From Fibrobacter succinogenes (GTDB lineage Bacteria > Fibrobacterota > Fibrobacteria > Fibrobacterales > Fibrobacteraceae): DNA of 64,000 bases. The notes under the pieces were generated by a model, which was not told the DNA's origin, did no database searches, and saw nothing but the letters and a program-made list of their open reading frames with translations. Position 1 is the first letter of the stretch. Each line of letters starts with the position of its first letter. This document shows positions 39,413-47,305 of the stretch, one piece after another. The stretch is from positions 1 through 64,000 of the forward strand of contig CACWNW010000007.1 in the NCBI GenBank assembly GCA_902762305.1, in the 5' to 3' direction. Position numbers and translations under genes: made by a program.

Positions 39413-40867
39413 TCAGTTCTTAAAATCTTCTTTCTTCATGCCCAAGCGCTCCATGACCTCACGGAGGACCTTGCGGTCAATCCCGAGAATCGTGGCGGCA
39501 AGAGTGAGGTTCGCATTGCTGTCCTGCAGGGCACGGGCAATCACTTCGCGCTCCACGGCCTCGCGCGCTTCCTTCAGCGTGCGGGGGCTTTCCTTAGCCT
39601 CCTTCTGCACGTCGTCGAGCCCGATATCCTTGGGCTGTATAACGCCATGGACAGCCTGCACCAGGCCCTTCTGGATGCGGTTCTCGAGTTCGCGCACGTT
39701 GCCCGGCCAGTGGTAGCCCAGCAAAGCCTTCTCGGTATTGCGGCTCATCTTGAACTTGCCGCGACCATATTCCGCACTGTAGCGCTTGATGAATTCCTCG
39801 GCCAAGAGGACAACGTCCTGCCCGCGCTCACGAAGCGGCGGGATGGCAACCGGCATCACCTGGATGCGGAAGTAGAGGTCTTCGCGGAACCGCTTCTCGC
39901 GGACCGCAGCCTCGAGATCCACATGCGTCGCCGATATCACGCGCACGTTCACGGGAATCTCGCGGTTGTCACCCACGCGCGTAATGTGCTTCTCCTGCAA
40001 CACGCGCAAAAGCTTCACCTGCATGTTCATCGGAAGTTCGCCAATCTCGTCGAGGAATATCGTGCCACCGTCGGCCTCTTCGAAGAACCCCTTGCGGGTA
40101 TCGATAGCGCCGGTGAACGAGCCCCTCGCATGCCCGAACAGGAGGGATTCGATCAGGTGCTCGGGGATGGCCCCGCAGTTCACCGCAATGAACGGGCGGT
40201 CGGCACGCGGGCTGTGGTTATGGATAAAGCGCGCGAACACTTCCTTGCCCGTTCCGGTCTCGCCGCGGATAATCACGGGCAGCGGGAGCAAGGCAAGCTT
40301 TTCGGCCAGCGCGACCAGTTCCGCCATCGCCTTGCACGAATACACGATGCCGTCCTTACGAACAACGTTCTTGAGCACGTCGAGCGATTCCTTGTCGCGC
40401 AGGCGGTCGTAGGCGGCAAACGCGAACTTCTCGCACACTTCCACGAAGGCGTCGAAGAGCGCGCTGTCCTCTTCGGTAAAAGGTTCCTCGCGGGCGGCGC
40501 GCTGCAAGTACAGGTAGCCCGATTCGCTGTCGGGAGTACGGAACGGCGAAACCATGATGCTCGTGAGCTGGTTCTGGACGATGGACTTCGAGAGGTCGGC
40601 ACCGTCGTCGTCGAGCTGGTTCCACACGACGGCGCGCTTTTCGGACTTTGCCTGCTTTACCGCCGAAATGGAAATGCTCACCTGCTCGGGGTTCGAGAAG
40701 TGCAGCGGGTTCTCGCCCGAAATATCGAGCACCGCGGCATCCGCATGGAGCACGCCCTTCGCCACTTCGAGTATCTTCGAGAAAAGGCTCTCGGGCTGCT
40801 CCTCGTCGAGCAGCGTCTTCACCACATCGAGCATCTTTTCAGTCGCAAGCATCGATTCCGTTTTCAT
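39413..40867 (-). CDS. Sigma-54-dependent activator with GAF-like sensor
   Basis: An enhancer-binding protein of 484 residues: GAF-like N-terminus (about 30-155), AAA+ domain with GETGTGKE (Walker A), ESLLFGHARGSFTGAID (the GAFTGA loop reads GSFTGA) and GGTIFLDEIGELP (Walker B), then a Fis-type HTH at the C-terminus (LTLAATILGIDRKVLREVM). It has no receiver domain, so a ligand or another protein must control it. The start at 40867 has GGAG 10 bases upstream; 40897 is possible too. It is the last gene of a TPR lipoprotein/kinase/activator operon, 22 bases after the kinase gene. Confidence 0.92.
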   Translation of the reverse strand: MKTESMLATEKMLDVVKTLLDEEQPESLFSKILEVAKGVLHADAAVLDISGENPLHFSNPEQVSISISAVKQAKSEKRAVVWNQLDDDGADLSKSIVQNQLTSIMVSPFRTPDSESGYLYLQRAAREEPFTEEDSALFDAFVEVCEKFAFAAYDRLRDKESLDVLKNVVRKDGIVYSCKAMAELVALAEKLALLPLPVIIRGETGTGKEVFARFIHNHSPRADRPFIAVNCGAIPEHLIESLLFGHARGSFTGAIDTRKGFFEEADGGTIFLDEIGELPMNMQVKLLRVLQEKHITRVGDNREIPVNVRVISATHVDLEAAVREKRFREDLYFRIQVMPVAIPPLRERGQDVVLLAEEFIKRYSAEYGRGKFKMSRNTEKALLGYHWPGNVRELENRIQKGLVQAVHGVIQPKDIGLDDVQKEAKESPRTLKEAREAVEREVIARALQDSNANLTLAATILGIDRKVLREVMERLGMKKEDFKN

Positions 40868-40889
40868 TTTGCAACTACTCCGTTCAAGT

Positions 40890-42038
40890 TTATTCATCCG
40901 TTACACCGTTGTCGCCAGCACCTTCGAGTTCAGGCGTAGGCAGGGATTCGAGCAACATTCCCGAAACACCGCTGTCGCCGCCCGAGGAATCCTGCGCCTC
41001 GCCCACAATCGCGTCGAGCGACCTGGACTTCTGCAAGATGGAGGCTCCGGTCTCGTCAATCGAGGGTCCCCCGCGCGAAAACGCGAAGAACAGCGCCACA
41101 AGCAACAATATAAGTCCTAAAATACAAGCAAACGCAACCCGTTTTCGCCCCCCTGTGGGCTTTATCATCGCAAATTCGACGGGAAGGGCGCATGCACCCT
41201 CGGAACCGTGACCAATCGTTCCGATTTTTTCGGCGAGGGCGGCGACAGTCCCCGCCCGCAGGGTCTCCCATGCGACGCTCCCACCGGAGACCTTCCCGAA
41301 GGCAATCTCCAGCAGTTCGTCCAGTTCGTCGAAATCCTCCACGCGGTCTTCCGGATCGGCACGCAAGAGGCCCTTCCACAGGGGTTCGAGACACGAGAGT
41401 TCCTCCGCCTTCACGCCCCTGCCGTACAGGAGCGAAGTCGTATCAATTTCATCCACCAGCGACGCTGCACGCGCGTAAGACTCGAAGGTATCGCCCACGA
41501 CAAGGTCCACGCCCGCCACCAGGCGGTACAGGAGCATCCCCACGCTGTAGAGGTCGCTCTTCTCGTCGGGTGCCCTACCCTGGAAACGTTCGGGAGCCGC
41601 ATATGCGGGAGCCCCCGGCCCCACTATACCGCAGTCGATAACTACGGGAGTTCCGTCGGCGCAGACAATCACGTTCGAAGGATTCAGGTCCCCGTGATGC
41701 ACCCCGCACGACGCCAGCGCGGCCAGCGCCCGCACGACATCACGAACAAGGGAAATAGCAAAAGCGACAGGCAGCGCGCCCAGTTCCGCCGCGGGGATGC
41801 CATCCACGAAATCGTACACCAGGTAAGGCCTACCAGCCTTTTCGCCCGTCTCGCGCACCCGGTAGACGCCCCGGTCGTGCACCTGCGAAATGGCCTCGAT
41901 AGATGCGGCATCGAACCTCACGCCCGCGGCATACCACTTGAGCGCATATTCCCTACCCTGCGAAACGACCTTGTAAATCTCGGCCTCGCCGCCCCTGTGG
42001 AGCATAGCGCACTGGCTCACTCCGGCAAGGATACTCAT
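40890..42038 (-). CDS. Membrane-anchored Ser/Thr protein kinase-like protein
   Basis: A 382-residue kinase fold: Gly loop LHRGGEAEIYK, catalytic Lys34 (YALKWY), HGDLNPSN near residue 115 in place of HRD-KPxN, and DCG at 135-137 in place of DFG. A membrane segment (ACILGLILLLVALFFAF) near residue 305 leaves a short acidic outer tail. The essential Lys, both Asp and Asn122 are kept, so activity is possible; loss of the HRD Arg means activation-loop control would differ. Its start overlaps the stop of the TPR lipoprotein gene and the sigma-54 activator gene follows, so it could phosphorylate the activator. Confidence 0.82.
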   Translation of the reverse strand: MSILAGVSQCAMLHRGGEAEIYKVVSQGREYALKWYAAGVRFDAASIEAISQVHDRGVYRVRETGEKAGRPYLVYDFVDGIPAAELGALPVAFAISLVRDVVRALAALASCGVHHGDLNPSNVIVCADGTPVVIDCGIVGPGAPAYAAPERFQGRAPDEKSDLYSVGMLLYRLVAGVDLVVGDTFESYARAASLVDEIDTTSLLYGRGVKAEELSCLEPLWKGLLRADPEDRVEDFDELDELLEIAFGKVSGGSVAWETLRAGTVAALAEKIGTIGHGSEGACALPVEFAMIKPTGGRKRVAFACILGLILLLVALFFAFSRGGPSIDETGASILQKSRSLDAIVGEAQDSSGGDSGVSGMLLESLPTPELEGAGDNGVTDE

Positions 42039-42763
42039 AGTTCGCCTGCCCGCACCATCGCGCCGAGCGAATCCTCGGCAGCCCGCGTCCAGCGGGAAAG
42101 TTCAGCATCTTCGGGAACCGCCTCGTGGCCCATCGACCAGATGTCCCACGCCGACCCGATATCGCCCTCGGCCCAGTAGAGGTTTCCGAGGTTCAGGTAG
42201 GCCGAAGAGAACTTCGGTTCCTTCGTCACGATAAACGCATAAATTTTCTTTGCCTCCTCGACGCGCCCGAGATTCGAGAAAAGGAGCGCCTTGAGGTTGT
42301 AGCTGAAAAAGTTCGCGCTGTCGAGCCGGATAGAACGGTCCAGAAGCGGGAGCACGTTCGCATGCCCGTCCTTATACAGCGTCGCGCGCGCCAGATAGAA
42401 CAGCGCGGTAGAATAGGTACCCGAGATGCTTTCGGAGGAATCGACCTTCGAGAGGATGCGGAACTCGTTCACGGTCTTCTCCCACATTTCGAGAGTGGGC
42501 TGCTTGAGGCGTTCCTTGTCTTCGGCGATGGAGAAGTAGGCTAGCGCGAGGCCGTAACGTGCATCGCGATTCGCCGGTTCGTCGTCGAGCGCCTTCGAAA
42601 AGTTGGTTACGGCACGGTCAAAATCGCCGATGCGCAGGGCGGTATTCCCCCGCTCCACGCTCCGCTCTACACAGGCGGAAAAGACGGCAGCCACAAGCAG
42701 CAGCGCCGCCGCGTACAAAATACGCGAAAAAAGATGTGTTCGATGCCAAACACGCCTGTTCAT
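42035..42763 (-). CDS. TPR lipoprotein
   Basis: A 242-residue lipoprotein with lipobox FSAC and several TPR units (GNTALRIGDFDRAVTNFSKA, AYLNLGNLYWAEGDIGSAWD). TPRs mediate protein contacts, so it may be the outer sensor or scaffold of the operon. The start is the ATG at 42763, behind GAGGGG. Its stop overlaps the kinase start as ATGA. Confidence 0.85.
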   Translation of the reverse strand: MNRRVWHRTHLFSRILYAAALLLVAAVFSACVERSVERGNTALRIGDFDRAVTNFSKALDDEPANRDARYGLALAYFSIAEDKERLKQPTLEMWEKTVNEFRILSKVDSSESISGTYSTALFYLARATLYKDGHANVLPLLDRSIRLDSANFFSYNLKALLFSNLGRVEEAKKIYAFIVTKEPKFSSAYLNLGNLYWAEGDIGSAWDIWSMGHEAVPEDAELSRWTRAAEDSLGAMVRAGEL

Positions 42764-42869
42764 ACCCCTCAAAATACATTAAAAAACGGGAAAATGCGGG
42801 TCGCCCCCCAAAAAAATGCATTTTTTTGTTAGAAATCGACCAGGATTTATTAAGACGACGAGCGGTATA

Positions 42870-43816: not shown

Positions 43817-43930
43817 AAATGCCTCATTTTTCGTATTTTATTGTAGATAATGTACAAATTATTATTTATTTTAGGCAAGGGGGGAAGCAACGGGATTGTC
43901 GTTCCAGCCCCTACTGGGAAAGGAAGAGAT

Positions 43931-45439
43931 ATGGTGTTTAGGTGTAAATTAATTGCACTGTTTTTAGCGATAGCCATTTCGCAGGCTTTCGCTGTAGATT
44001 CGCTTAACATCTGGATTATGCCAAACGGGGCTTCGCCCCAAGAAAAGCTCGAACAAGAGCTCGAAACGTTCACAGCCAAGACGCAGATTCCTGTCAAGGT
44101 GACGGTGCTCGACTGGGGCGAAGCATGGAACCGCATTTCGACCACGCTCGAAAACAAGGAAAACGCCCCCGACGTGCTGCAGCTCGGGAGCACCTGGGTA
44201 CCCTACTTCGCCGCACGCGGTGAACTCAAGAACCTAAACGAGATTCTCGAACAAGTAGACTCCACACGATTCGTGCCCGTCTCGTGGTACACATCCCATA
44301 TAGACAGCGACACGAACATCTATGCCGTCCCGTGGTTCATCGACGTGAGGCCCGTACTCGGCAACAAGCGCATCATGAAGAAGTACGGCATAACGCCCGA
44401 AAGCATCCGCGACTACAAGGGTTTCTCGGACGCCATACGCAAGGTGAACGAAGGCAAGGAACTGCTGGAATACGGCGCCAAGATTCGCGGCTACGCATTC
44501 CCGGGCAAGAGCGACTGGAACATTCCCCACAATTTCGCCCCATGGATCTGGAGCTACGGTGGCAGGCTTGTCGACAAGGACAAGAACGGCAAATGGCACG
44601 CGAGCATCCTCTCGGCACCGACGCTCGAAGGCATCGCGAAGTACCTCTCCTTCATAGTCGATTCCCTCGTATCCACCGAATCTCTGCAATCCAATTCCGC
44701 AGAAATCGCCCAGCAGTTCAACAACGGTGAATTCGCCTTCATCGTAAGCACGGCAGAAATCGTGATGCAGACGCGCATCCACGGTTCGCAGGGCGGGCTT
44801 TCGGACGCACGTATCGCGCAGGACAGCGTAATCGTGCTCCCCATCCCGAATGGTAGGGCAGGCAGCGTGAGCTTCCTCGGAGGCTCGAACCTCGCCATTC
44901 CCGCAATAAACACGAAGGAAGAGGCCGTCCAGCTGCTGCTGTTCTTGACCGCAGACTCAAGCCTCGACGCCTACACCAAGCAAATCGGGTTCTTGCCCGC
45001 ATCGAAAAAGGTCCTGGAATCCTGGGCCGAAGACGAGGCCTACAAGAACCTGGTCGCCCTGCTCGAAACCGGAAGGACCTACCCCGCGCTCCCCGAATGG
45101 GGAACCATCGAGCAGACGCTCGTTTCCATGTTCAGCGCGGTGTGGGACCTGCTCGAAATCCCCGCGCTCTACTCCGAAGAAAAACTTTACCGGATTTTCA
45201 AGGAAAAATCCGACATCATCGACAGCCAGCTCGGCTACACGCCAACGCACACCATGACTTTCGCCGAATTCCAGGAAATCTGGCAACGATCCATCGTAAA
45301 GTCCGATACCACGGAGCAAGCGCCCGACCAGGCAAAGGAACCCGAAGGCATAAGCATAAACCCGACTCTGTACGTATTCTTTGTCGTCCTCGTTATCAGT
45401 TTCATCTTTTCGTATACCCGCAAACGGAAGAAAAGGTAG
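43931..45439 (+). CDS. Membrane-anchored family-1-like solute-binding protein
   Basis: A 502-residue protein with a signal peptide (CKLIALFLAIAISQAFA) and the fold of extracellular solute-binding proteins of the sugar type: LNIWIMPNGASPQEKLEQE, PDVLQLGSTWVPYFAARG, NIYAVPWFIDVRPVL and later LGGSNLAIPA. Unlike ordinary members it ends with a membrane segment (YVFFVVLVISFIFSY) and a basic tail, which would hold it at the inner membrane. No ABC permease or ATPase is nearby. The diguanylate cyclase gene begins 9 bases after its stop, so it probably acts as a sensor subunit. Start behind AAGGAAG at 43931. Confidence 0.85.
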   Translation: MVFRCKLIALFLAIAISQAFAVDSLNIWIMPNGASPQEKLEQELETFTAKTQIPVKVTVLDWGEAWNRISTTLENKENAPDVLQLGSTWVPYFAARGELKNLNEILEQVDSTRFVPVSWYTSHIDSDTNIYAVPWFIDVRPVLGNKRIMKKYGITPESIRDYKGFSDAIRKVNEGKELLEYGAKIRGYAFPGKSDWNIPHNFAPWIWSYGGRLVDKDKNGKWHASILSAPTLEGIAKYLSFIVDSLVSTESLQSNSAEIAQQFNNGEFAFIVSTAEIVMQTRIHGSQGGLSDARIAQDSVIVLPIPNGRAGSVSFLGGSNLAIPAINTKEEAVQLLLFLTADSSLDAYTKQIGFLPASKKVLESWAEDEAYKNLVALLETGRTYPALPEWGTIEQTLVSMFSAVWDLLEIPALYSEEKLYRIFKEKSDIIDSQLGYTPTHTMTFAEFQEIWQRSIVKSDTTEQAPDQAKEPEGISINPTLYVFFVVLVISFIFSYTRKRKKR

Positions 45440-45448
45440 GCTAGAGCT

Positions 45449-47179
45449 ATGAACGAGAACAGAGTCCTAAAGCTTTCGAAAAGCCTCATTGTCAGGAGCC
45501 TCCTGTTCCTGATATGCGCGTTGGCCGCAGTAACCATAGGCGGCATGTACTACTTCGTGAACCACCAAACGCAGATGAACCTGGTATCGACCTTCGAGTC
45601 AAACAAGGTCCACCTGCAGCAAATGTCCACGGCCATCCACAACGAGATGCAGCAGTTCGGCAACCAGCTCACCCTGCTCGCAAAAACATCCGAAATCAAA
45701 AGCATGAATCCGGCCATCGCGGCGGGTTACCTGAAGAGCTACAACATCTCTCCGTTGTTCATTTCGGGCGAAAAAATTTCGCTGTTCGACCGCAACGACA
45801 GCCTCATCTGCGACAACACCATGGTCGCCTCGACGCCGACCAAGTACCCCATCGACTTTACCAAGATTACCCCGCACAGGCCATACATCTCGGGATGGTA
45901 CCGCGACCCCGACAACATGCGGCCCAAGCGCGCATTCGCAACCGTCGTCACCGACAACGCCAAAGGGAACGGGAGCCTTGTGGCAAGTTTCTCCGCACAG
46001 AGGCTCTGGAAAATCCTCTCCGATAGCAAGGTCGGCAAGCAGGGCTACTATGTTGCAATCAACTCCGAAGGCGAAATCATATTCCACCCCGATCTCGAAA
46101 AATGGCTCGCCGACCACCACAAGATTTCGGAACTCGGCATAAGGAATTTCTCCCCGAAGAACGAAGAAATCAAGAGGGTCAAGTTCTATACCCTCTCCGA
46201 CGGCCAGAAATACCTAGCCAACTACATATACGACACCATCTACGATATCGGCTTGCTCTCGCTGCAGCCCAAGGAAGAAATCGATTCGCAAGTATCCACG
46301 CTCCTGCTCGTAAGCAAGGTCATGCTCGTCACTGCGTTCATCGCGATACTGCTTGTTTCCGTGTGGTTCTACCGCAAGCTCGTGCTGCCCATGAGCAAGC
46401 TCATCGTCCACACCATCAAGATTTCCGAAGGCGACATCGAAGCCGAAGATATCGATTTCGGCAAGAGGCAAGACGAAATCGGCATCCTGGCGAAACACTT
46501 CAATATCATGCACGGGACCATCAAGCGCCAGATTGCGGAACTGAACGCGCACCGCGAAATGCTCGAACAGGAAGTGCGGGAACGGACGAAGGAGCTCGAA
46601 GAGGCGAACATGAAACTCGACCTGATTTCGAGGACGGACGAACTCACCGGGCTCCCCAACCGCCGCGACATGCTGCGCACAATCGACAACGAGATACAGC
46701 GCATTTCTCGCACCAGGAAGCCGTTCTGCTTCATATTCATCGATATCGACCACTTCAAGAACGTGAACGACACCTACGGGCACGCCTGCGGCGACGAAGT
46801 TCTCAAGCAGGTATCCGGTACCATCCGCAACTTGCTGCGCAAGTACGACGTGCTAGCCCGGTACGGCGGCGAGGAATTCCTCACGCTCCTCCCCGAAACA
46901 GACCTCATGGGTGCAAAGACTGTCGCGGAACGTTTCCGCTCGACCATCGAGAACACGACCGTCACTTACGGCAAGCTCTCCATCAAGGCGACCATCACGC
47001 TGGGTGTATCGCTATACGACAGCGCCCTCGGAGTGGACAGGAGCATCCAGATGGCAGACCGCGCCCTGTACGAGGGCAAGGAAAGCGGGCGAAACAAGGT
47101 CGTCGTCTGGGACCCCGCGCGTACCACCGAAGAAGACTACAAGGCGGCCGAACTCGAACGAGCCGCAAAGAACCTGTAG
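45449..47179 (+). CDS. Diguanylate cyclase with dCache, HAMP and GGDEF domains
   Basis: A 576-residue inner-membrane receptor. Membrane segments near residues 16-37 and 285-308 flank a periplasmic dCache-like sensor; HAMP and a coiled coil (EMLEQEVRERTKELEEAN) follow. The GGDEF domain has DELTGLPNRR, FIDIDHFKNVND and the active-site loop GGEEF near residue 472. RKYD lies five residues before it, the I-site RxxD for product inhibition. No EAL domain is present. It should make c-di-GMP in response to a ligand, probably via the anchored binding protein encoded just upstream. NspS-MbaA of Vibrio is a known precedent for such pairing. Confidence 0.92.
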   Translation: MNENRVLKLSKSLIVRSLLFLICALAAVTIGGMYYFVNHQTQMNLVSTFESNKVHLQQMSTAIHNEMQQFGNQLTLLAKTSEIKSMNPAIAAGYLKSYNISPLFISGEKISLFDRNDSLICDNTMVASTPTKYPIDFTKITPHRPYISGWYRDPDNMRPKRAFATVVTDNAKGNGSLVASFSAQRLWKILSDSKVGKQGYYVAINSEGEIIFHPDLEKWLADHHKISELGIRNFSPKNEEIKRVKFYTLSDGQKYLANYIYDTIYDIGLLSLQPKEEIDSQVSTLLLVSKVMLVTAFIAILLVSVWFYRKLVLPMSKLIVHTIKISEGDIEAEDIDFGKRQDEIGILAKHFNIMHGTIKRQIAELNAHREMLEQEVRERTKELEEANMKLDLISRTDELTGLPNRRDMLRTIDNEIQRISRTRKPFCFIFIDIDHFKNVNDTYGHACGDEVLKQVSGTIRNLLRKYDVLARYGGEEFLTLLPETDLMGAKTVAERFRSTIENTTVTYGKLSIKATITLGVSLYDSALGVDRSIQMADRALYEGKESGRNKVVVWDPARTTEEDYKAAELERAAKNL

Positions 47180-47200: not shown

Positions 47201-47230
47201 AAAAAAGCCCGCCGAAAGGCGGACTTTTTT
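47201..47230. terminator. Bidirectional terminator
   Basis: GCCCGCC pairs with GGCGGAC across a GAAA loop, with six A before and six T after. It serves the cyclase gene on plus and tRNA-Pro on minus. Confidence 0.8.
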
Positions 47231-47231
47231 A

Positions 47232-47305
47232 TCGGGATGACTGAATTCGAATCAGCGACCTCTTGAACCCCATTCAAGCGCTCTACCAGGCTGAGCTACA
47301 TCCCG
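47232..47305 (-). tRNA. tRNA-Pro (anticodon GGG)
   Basis: 74 nt, no encoded CCA. Acceptor CGGGATG/CATCCCG, anticodon stem CTTGA/TCAAG, loop ATGGGGT. Confidence 0.95.

Follow-up and report, generated by a model that had tools for sequence, protein, structure and literature searches.

Among the described systems that come closest to the present locus, NspS-MbaA of Vibrio cholerae and Sinorhizobium meliloti is a tightly spaced two-gene operon, in which a transport-independent solute-binding protein (SBP) is paired with a membrane c-di-GMP enzyme (PMC8967002, PMC9993111). NspS itself, a periplasmic SBP for polyamines, resembles PotD, and its partner MbaA carries both GGDEF and EAL. In Ruminiclostridium cellulolyticum, the CuaD-CuaS-CuaR system relies on a membrane-held SBP that is specific for a product of cellulose and works solely with a HAMP receptor, itself not a binder of the sugar (PMC10384115); CuaD is lipid-held, the output consists of a histidine kinase and an AraC-type regulator, and the organism has a matching importer. 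A third system is XylFII-LytS of Clostridium beijerinckii, in which, as far as the structure is described in the article that cites it (PMC9769921), a sugar SBP of another group docks on a receptor ectodomain of the 4HB type with a kinase output.

The locus described here lies in a stretch of 64,000 nucleotides from Fibrobacter succinogenes (GenBank assembly GCA_902762305.1, contig CACWNW010000007.1, positions 1 to 64,000), hereafter called the window. Fibrobacter are fibre-digesting bacteria of the gut, and we know of no account of how they sense cellulose. The locus consists of a gene for an SBP and a gene for a putative diguanylate cyclase (DGC), with the following features.

43931-45439, + strand: SBP open reading frame, 502 aa; CUT1-type solute-binding protein
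43931-43993, + strand: predicted Sec-type signal peptide, SBP residues 1-21, MVFRCKLIALFLAIAISQAFA; hydrophobic segment 7-25; no lipobox
44000-45226, + strand: CUT1 solute-binding domain, beta-gluco-oligosaccharide type, residues 24-432, from Pfam SBP_bac_8/1, PDB relatives and ligand residues
45350-45436, + strand: predicted C-terminal transmembrane anchor (residues 474-492; KD19, mean Kyte-Doolittle, 2.22) and basic cytoplasmic tail
45440-45448, + strand: gap of exactly 9 nt between SBP stop and DGC start
45449-47179, + strand: DGC, 576 aa; TM1, periplasmic dCache-like domain, TM2, HAMP, coiled coil, GGDEF
45557-46288, + strand: periplasmic dCache-like sensor domain, about residues 37-280, from a sub-threshold Pfam dCache_1 match and the AlphaFold2 strand/helix pattern
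46301-46357, + strand: second transmembrane helix of the DGC, residues 285-303 (KD19 2.71)
46364-46522, + strand: HAMP domain, DGC residues 306-358 (Pfam E 3e-8)
46634-47098, + strand: GGDEF domain with GGEEF active site and RxxD I-site (Pfam E 7e-46)
47209-47232, + strand: intrinsic terminator closing the two-gene unit, a 5-GC stem with T6 (fold z-score -3.3)

An alternative in-frame start at 43850 gives a longer SBP reading frame; the ATG at 43931 is preceded by AAGGAAGAG, and a clean Sec signal begins there. The product matches SBP_bac_8 (E 2e-25) and SBP_bac_1 (E 8e-21), and both the SBP_bac_1/8 fold and the sugar-site residues of the SBPs of CUT1 ABC importers are present. A variable linker joins this domain to the C-terminal helix, after which the protein ends in YTRKRKKR. 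In the DGC, the active site reads RYGGEEF and the I-site, RKYD, stands at the normal spacing of 5 residues ahead of GGEEF; RKYD-VLARY-GGEEF is conserved in the alignment, and GGEEF is invariant in the 8 aligned orthologues. By these motifs, GG(D/E)EF together with RxxD, the protein is predicted to be an active diguanylate cyclase. A Pfam scan found no EAL domain in it, GGDEF being the only output domain. Its dCache_1 match has an E value of 2e-8 and scores 34.5 bits against a Pfam cut-off of 45, which marks a divergent domain; a relative of the receptor scores 56.5 bits, over the cut-off. In the AlphaFold2 model of the DGC (mean pLDDT 71.9), the membrane-distal half of the dCache-like domain is of low confidence, and among the matches listed in a fold search with this model all fall on GGDEF and none on dCache. 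The anatomy proposed in a sequence-only reading of the window, namely a sugar-type SBP with its own C-terminal anchor and, 9 bases further on, a dCache-HAMP-GGDEF protein with intact active site and I-site, is therefore recovered at the same positions, with the dCache assignment falling below the Pfam cut-off. An Rfam scan of 42-49 kb gave a tRNA as the sole match.

Like NspS-MbaA, the window pair is a tightly spaced operon of an SBP and a membrane c-di-GMP enzyme. Whereas NspS is PotD-like, however, the window SBP is CUT1/CbpB-like and membrane-anchored, with no PotD among its PDB matches, and the enzyme has GGDEF where MbaA has GGDEF-EAL. Membership of the NspS-MbaA family is ruled out on both counts, the family of the SBP and the EAL domain. 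The sequence-only reading had likened the pair to NspS-MbaA with a different binding-protein family; the difference in family is borne out, beta-glucoside/cellodextrin SBPs being closest, and the likeness holds as a functional analogy, but the closest analogues also include CuaD-CuaS, a cellobiose SBP with a kinase. The window pair likewise appears to have a membrane-held SBP dedicated to a HAMP receptor, but with a helix as anchor and c-di-GMP as output; an SBP without lipobox and a GGDEF output domain rule out membership of CuaD-CuaS-CuaR. With XylFII-LytS, in so far as that structure is described, the pair would share the docking of a sugar SBP on a receptor ectodomain, the receptor here having dCache and GGDEF in place of 4HB and a kinase. 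Judged by its domains, the pair is best read as a tethered variant of the SBP-dependent c-di-GMP receptors, outside both the NspS-MbaA family and CuaD-CuaS.

We surveyed 168 Fibrobacterota genomes with the SBP and the dCache-HAMP part of the DGC as queries. Homologues of the window SBP with 45-100% identity, here called group A, occur in 81 genomes: 66 of the 80 genomes of the genus Fibrobacter, and a further 15 from seven more genera of the family Fibrobacteraceae. In each of the 81, the DGC follows immediately downstream in the same orientation, after a gap of about -4 to +48 nt (in G118, the DGC starts 48 nt after the SBP match), and neither a group A SBP without the DGC nor the DGC without the SBP was found in any of the 168 genomes. 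The neighbours of the pair differ completely between genera, and the pair itself is kept in eight genera of the Fibrobacteraceae. The adjacency is far from a matter of chance. In other words, the SBP gene neighbours that of a membrane GGDEF protein and is inherited together with it, which is the general mark of an SBP-dependent c-di-GMP receptor, and the dedicated pairing supposed in the earlier reading extends to every genome with either gene. The SBP and dCache trees also form matching groups, and the pairwise distances correlate at 0.954 for SBP and dCache versus 0.918 for dCache and its own GGDEF; this match is weak evidence and could reflect mere vertical inheritance, because vertical descent alone yields high values.

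The closest solved relatives of the SBP are 7c63, a beta-glucoside-binding protein from Thermus thermophilus (E 4e-65), and 7x0i, CbpB of Clostridium thermocellum (E 4e-54). CbpB binds the cellodextrins G2-G5, and its subsites +1 to +3 are common to the Thermus protein (PMC9601137). Ligand-site positions in the latter were taken from the single-residue differences among the chains of 7c6x, 7c6z and 7c71. The altered positions correspond to W62, W89 and D138 of the window SBP, which are conserved in 82 of 82 anchored proteins, and W28, W135, R140, W196, H200, N201, W205, W207 and W390 are also invariant in the 82. The tryptophan at GPW of the Thermus protein beta-GlyBP is E276 in the anchored group, so that the outer part, or a subsite, of the sugar site may differ. 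Because the nearest structures bind beta-gluco-oligosaccharides, the ligand is likely of this kind, with cellodextrins as candidates; nothing points to xylose. CbpB and beta-GlyBP resemble the window SBP in the domain and its conserved sugar-site residues, but they are importer SBPs without a comparable C-terminal helix.

This helix is a constant feature of group A, in which all 76 distinct tails are hydrophobic (1.48 or more) and then have a basic end, as the fixed anchor of the sequence-only reading would have it. No lipobox was found in 92 orthologue entries, which rules out a lipoprotein. None of the sorting-signal models scored above its cut-off at the SBP C-terminus (GG_III-CTERM came nearest, with 15.4 of the 22 bits needed), and the residues ahead of the helix vary among orthologues. 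A surface protein processed by a sortase or rhombosortase-type enzyme was rejected for the same two reasons, no recognised signal before the helix and no conservation there. With neither lipobox nor known sorting signal, the tail is most simply read as an ordinary anchor in the inner membrane whose C-terminus faces the cytoplasm.

SBPs of this type normally serve import. That one of them is anchored, and always encoded beside a c-di-GMP enzyme, suggests that it is probably part of a sensor that reports cellulose digestion. We hold with some confidence that the SBP and the DGC form one sensor, in which the tethered SBP binds a beta-gluco-oligosaccharide, docks on the dCache domain and switches the GGDEF domain. 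After export, the SBP would be held by its own helix at the inner membrane, facing the periplasm, where it would close on a soluble cellodextrin or related beta-glucan fragment freed from plant fibre. By analogy with NspS-MbaA and CuaD-CuaS, the closed form would dock from the side on the dCache domain of the adjacent DGC, and the change would pass through TM2 and HAMP to the GGDEF dimer; a joined SBP-dCache-HAMP chain modelled with AlphaFold2 (TAG read through for modelling, alignment of few loci) gave pLDDT 53 and pTM 0.35, too low a confidence for any interface to be read from it. Binding would most likely raise c-di-GMP, and a downstream role may lie in adhesion or cellulase expression. 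The protein would have descended from an import protein in a genus that no longer has that type of permease. We propose that tethering replaces a high periplasmic abundance of SBP: the tether fixes SBP and receptor in one plane, so that low SBP numbers would suffice.

It might be supposed instead that the SBP still takes up sugar with an unlinked ABC permease, and that its link to the DGC is only that of an operon under shared regulation. An uptake role has been proposed for FSU_1047 of F. succinogenes S85, an SBP 31.3% identical to CbpB and 1.25-fold up on cellulose, which was read as an importer component (PMC6851124); earlier work had detected it on cellulose alone (PMC4619616). Its reported properties (57.575 kDa, pI 7.77, GRAVY -0.218) come close to those of one group A protein, from locus L125 (57.467 kDa, 7.77, -0.207), and are unlike those of six paralogues (group B, below) examined; by these physical properties, FSU_1047 is probably the S85 orthologue of the group A SBP. 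Homologues in sister lineages, moreover, are real transporter SBPs: an SBP 30% identical lies in a CUT1 operon of the order ATPase-SBP-permease-permease in sister genera g2 and g4, in genome G044 and in family f4. On the contrary, there is no transporter by the window locus, no CUT1-type permease was matched in the window's own genome (95% complete), and none cognate to the SBP family was found in any of the 80 Fibrobacter genomes; MalF/MalG-type partners were likewise not found in this set. The sequence-only reading, which had assumed that there was no transporter, had named an ABC permease elsewhere as the contrary case; a search for one turned up no such partner, and the four BPD_transp_1 permeases of the genome all belong to Opp/Dpp-like genes. 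Furthermore, the homologues split cleanly into those with a C-terminal helix and no permease and those without a helix inside ATPase-SBP-permease-permease operons, and the ten transporter-type proteins lack the anchor (best tail hydrophobicity 0.08-0.53). The SBP would accordingly seem not to be used by an ABC permease, and we regard the uptake explanation as quite improbable. Both types occur together in the single genome G044, and genus g6 has the importer as well as the anchored pair. Taken with the split and the absence of the importer from Fibrobacter, the case of g6 indicates that the anchored SBP is a separate line, which in Fibrobacter has outlived the importer. In addition, L094:1472-5635 (G164) codes for 1387 aa with several membrane helices and a C-terminal SBP domain (953-1384), apparently a permease-SBP fusion, and the CUT1 permeases at L096:1803-3839 and L098:1210-3438 (680-740 aa) have a long N-terminal extension ahead of BPD_transp_1.

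The dCache domain might also sense a ligand of its own, with the tethered SBP doing no more than enriching sugar or passing it on, either to dCache or to a different protein of the envelope (e.g., the membrane cellodextrin phosphorylase). Some independent use of each half is indeed suggested by the paralogues. Group B is an anchored SBP with 35% identity (in the window's own genome at L014:5146-6753, contig C8), whose gene is flanked by aroA and a dacB-like gene and has neither a DGC nor any other signalling gene next to it; in genera g3 and g8 the group A pair occupies the same interval, as aroA-SBP-DGC-dacB. Conversely, DGC-2, 49% identical to the DGC over its length, has no SBP neighbour; it occurs in ten Fibrobacter genomes without the group A pair and in three with it, and in the tree it branches from the paired DGC within the genus. 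Each half can therefore exist apart, which speaks against a dedicated sensor. Group B is present in most genomes with DGC-2, and it is a guess that the one may serve the other. The obligate one-to-one pairing over 81 genomes would nevertheless be needless for a general sugar buffer, and we consider this explanation unlikely. Comparably small is the chance that the architecture is the same and the sign opposite, such that the apo-SBP keeps the DGC on or the liganded SBP turns it off. In NspS-MbaA, the identity of the ligand sets either direction (PMC8967002); however, S85 cells grown on cellulose contain about 2.5-fold more c-di-GMP, a bulk measure that favours activation (PMC6851124). The genome of the window codes for 13 GGDEF domains, so the bulk rise need not come from the paired DGC, which is itself absent from the list of changed GGDEF proteins in the S85 data; the genome also has one PilZ match. 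As for DGC-2, its loci (L141:4465-6195, L142, L143, L144, L145 and L151) have Sua5-, competence- and peptidase-like genes as neighbours.

Returning to the sensor of tethered SBP and cyclase, deeper relatives suggest a wider module. In G004 (family f7), the gene for a homologue of the SBP that is likewise anchored and the gene for an 871-aa dCache-HAMP-HPt-HATPase kinase are divergently oriented, 224 nt apart, and in G165 (family f5) homologues of the anchored SBP and the kinase lie at the ends of different contigs. With a kinase beside the anchored SBP in the lineage of G004, the sensing half appears to be constant while the output half is swapped. It is a tentative idea, somewhat short of an even chance, that the Fibrobacterota have a co-receptor module of an anchored former import SBP and a dCache-HAMP receptor with exchangeable output (GGDEF in the Fibrobacteraceae, an HPt-HATPase kinase in deeper lineages), and that the Fibrobacter module survived the loss of the importer to become the cellulose sensor responsible for the c-di-GMP rise. 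Here an import SBP would have been recruited as a fixed co-receptor, and one and the same sensing half would serve a cyclase in one lineage and a kinase in another. The 2019 proteome study stated that the signals for Fibrobacter GGDEF proteins were unknown (PMC6851124), and the pair offers a concrete candidate receptor for the cellulose-linked rise; it also casts doubt on FSU_1047 being part of an importer, as published. In a 2022 review of c-di-GMP, SBP_bac_3 is the one PBP-clan domain listed as having been studied in such networks (PMC8846402), and a sugar-type SBP would thus add a new kind of input. The receptors at L088:4459-8782 (G004) and L148:2-2458 (G165) combine dCache-HAMP with HPt and HATPase_c, not GGDEF. 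In the window itself, positions 39413-42772 (- strand) hold a row of genes for a GAF/sigma-54-type activator, a short protein-kinase-like membrane protein and a TPR protein, assigned by eye from the ORF translations; this row is conserved in L007 and L009.
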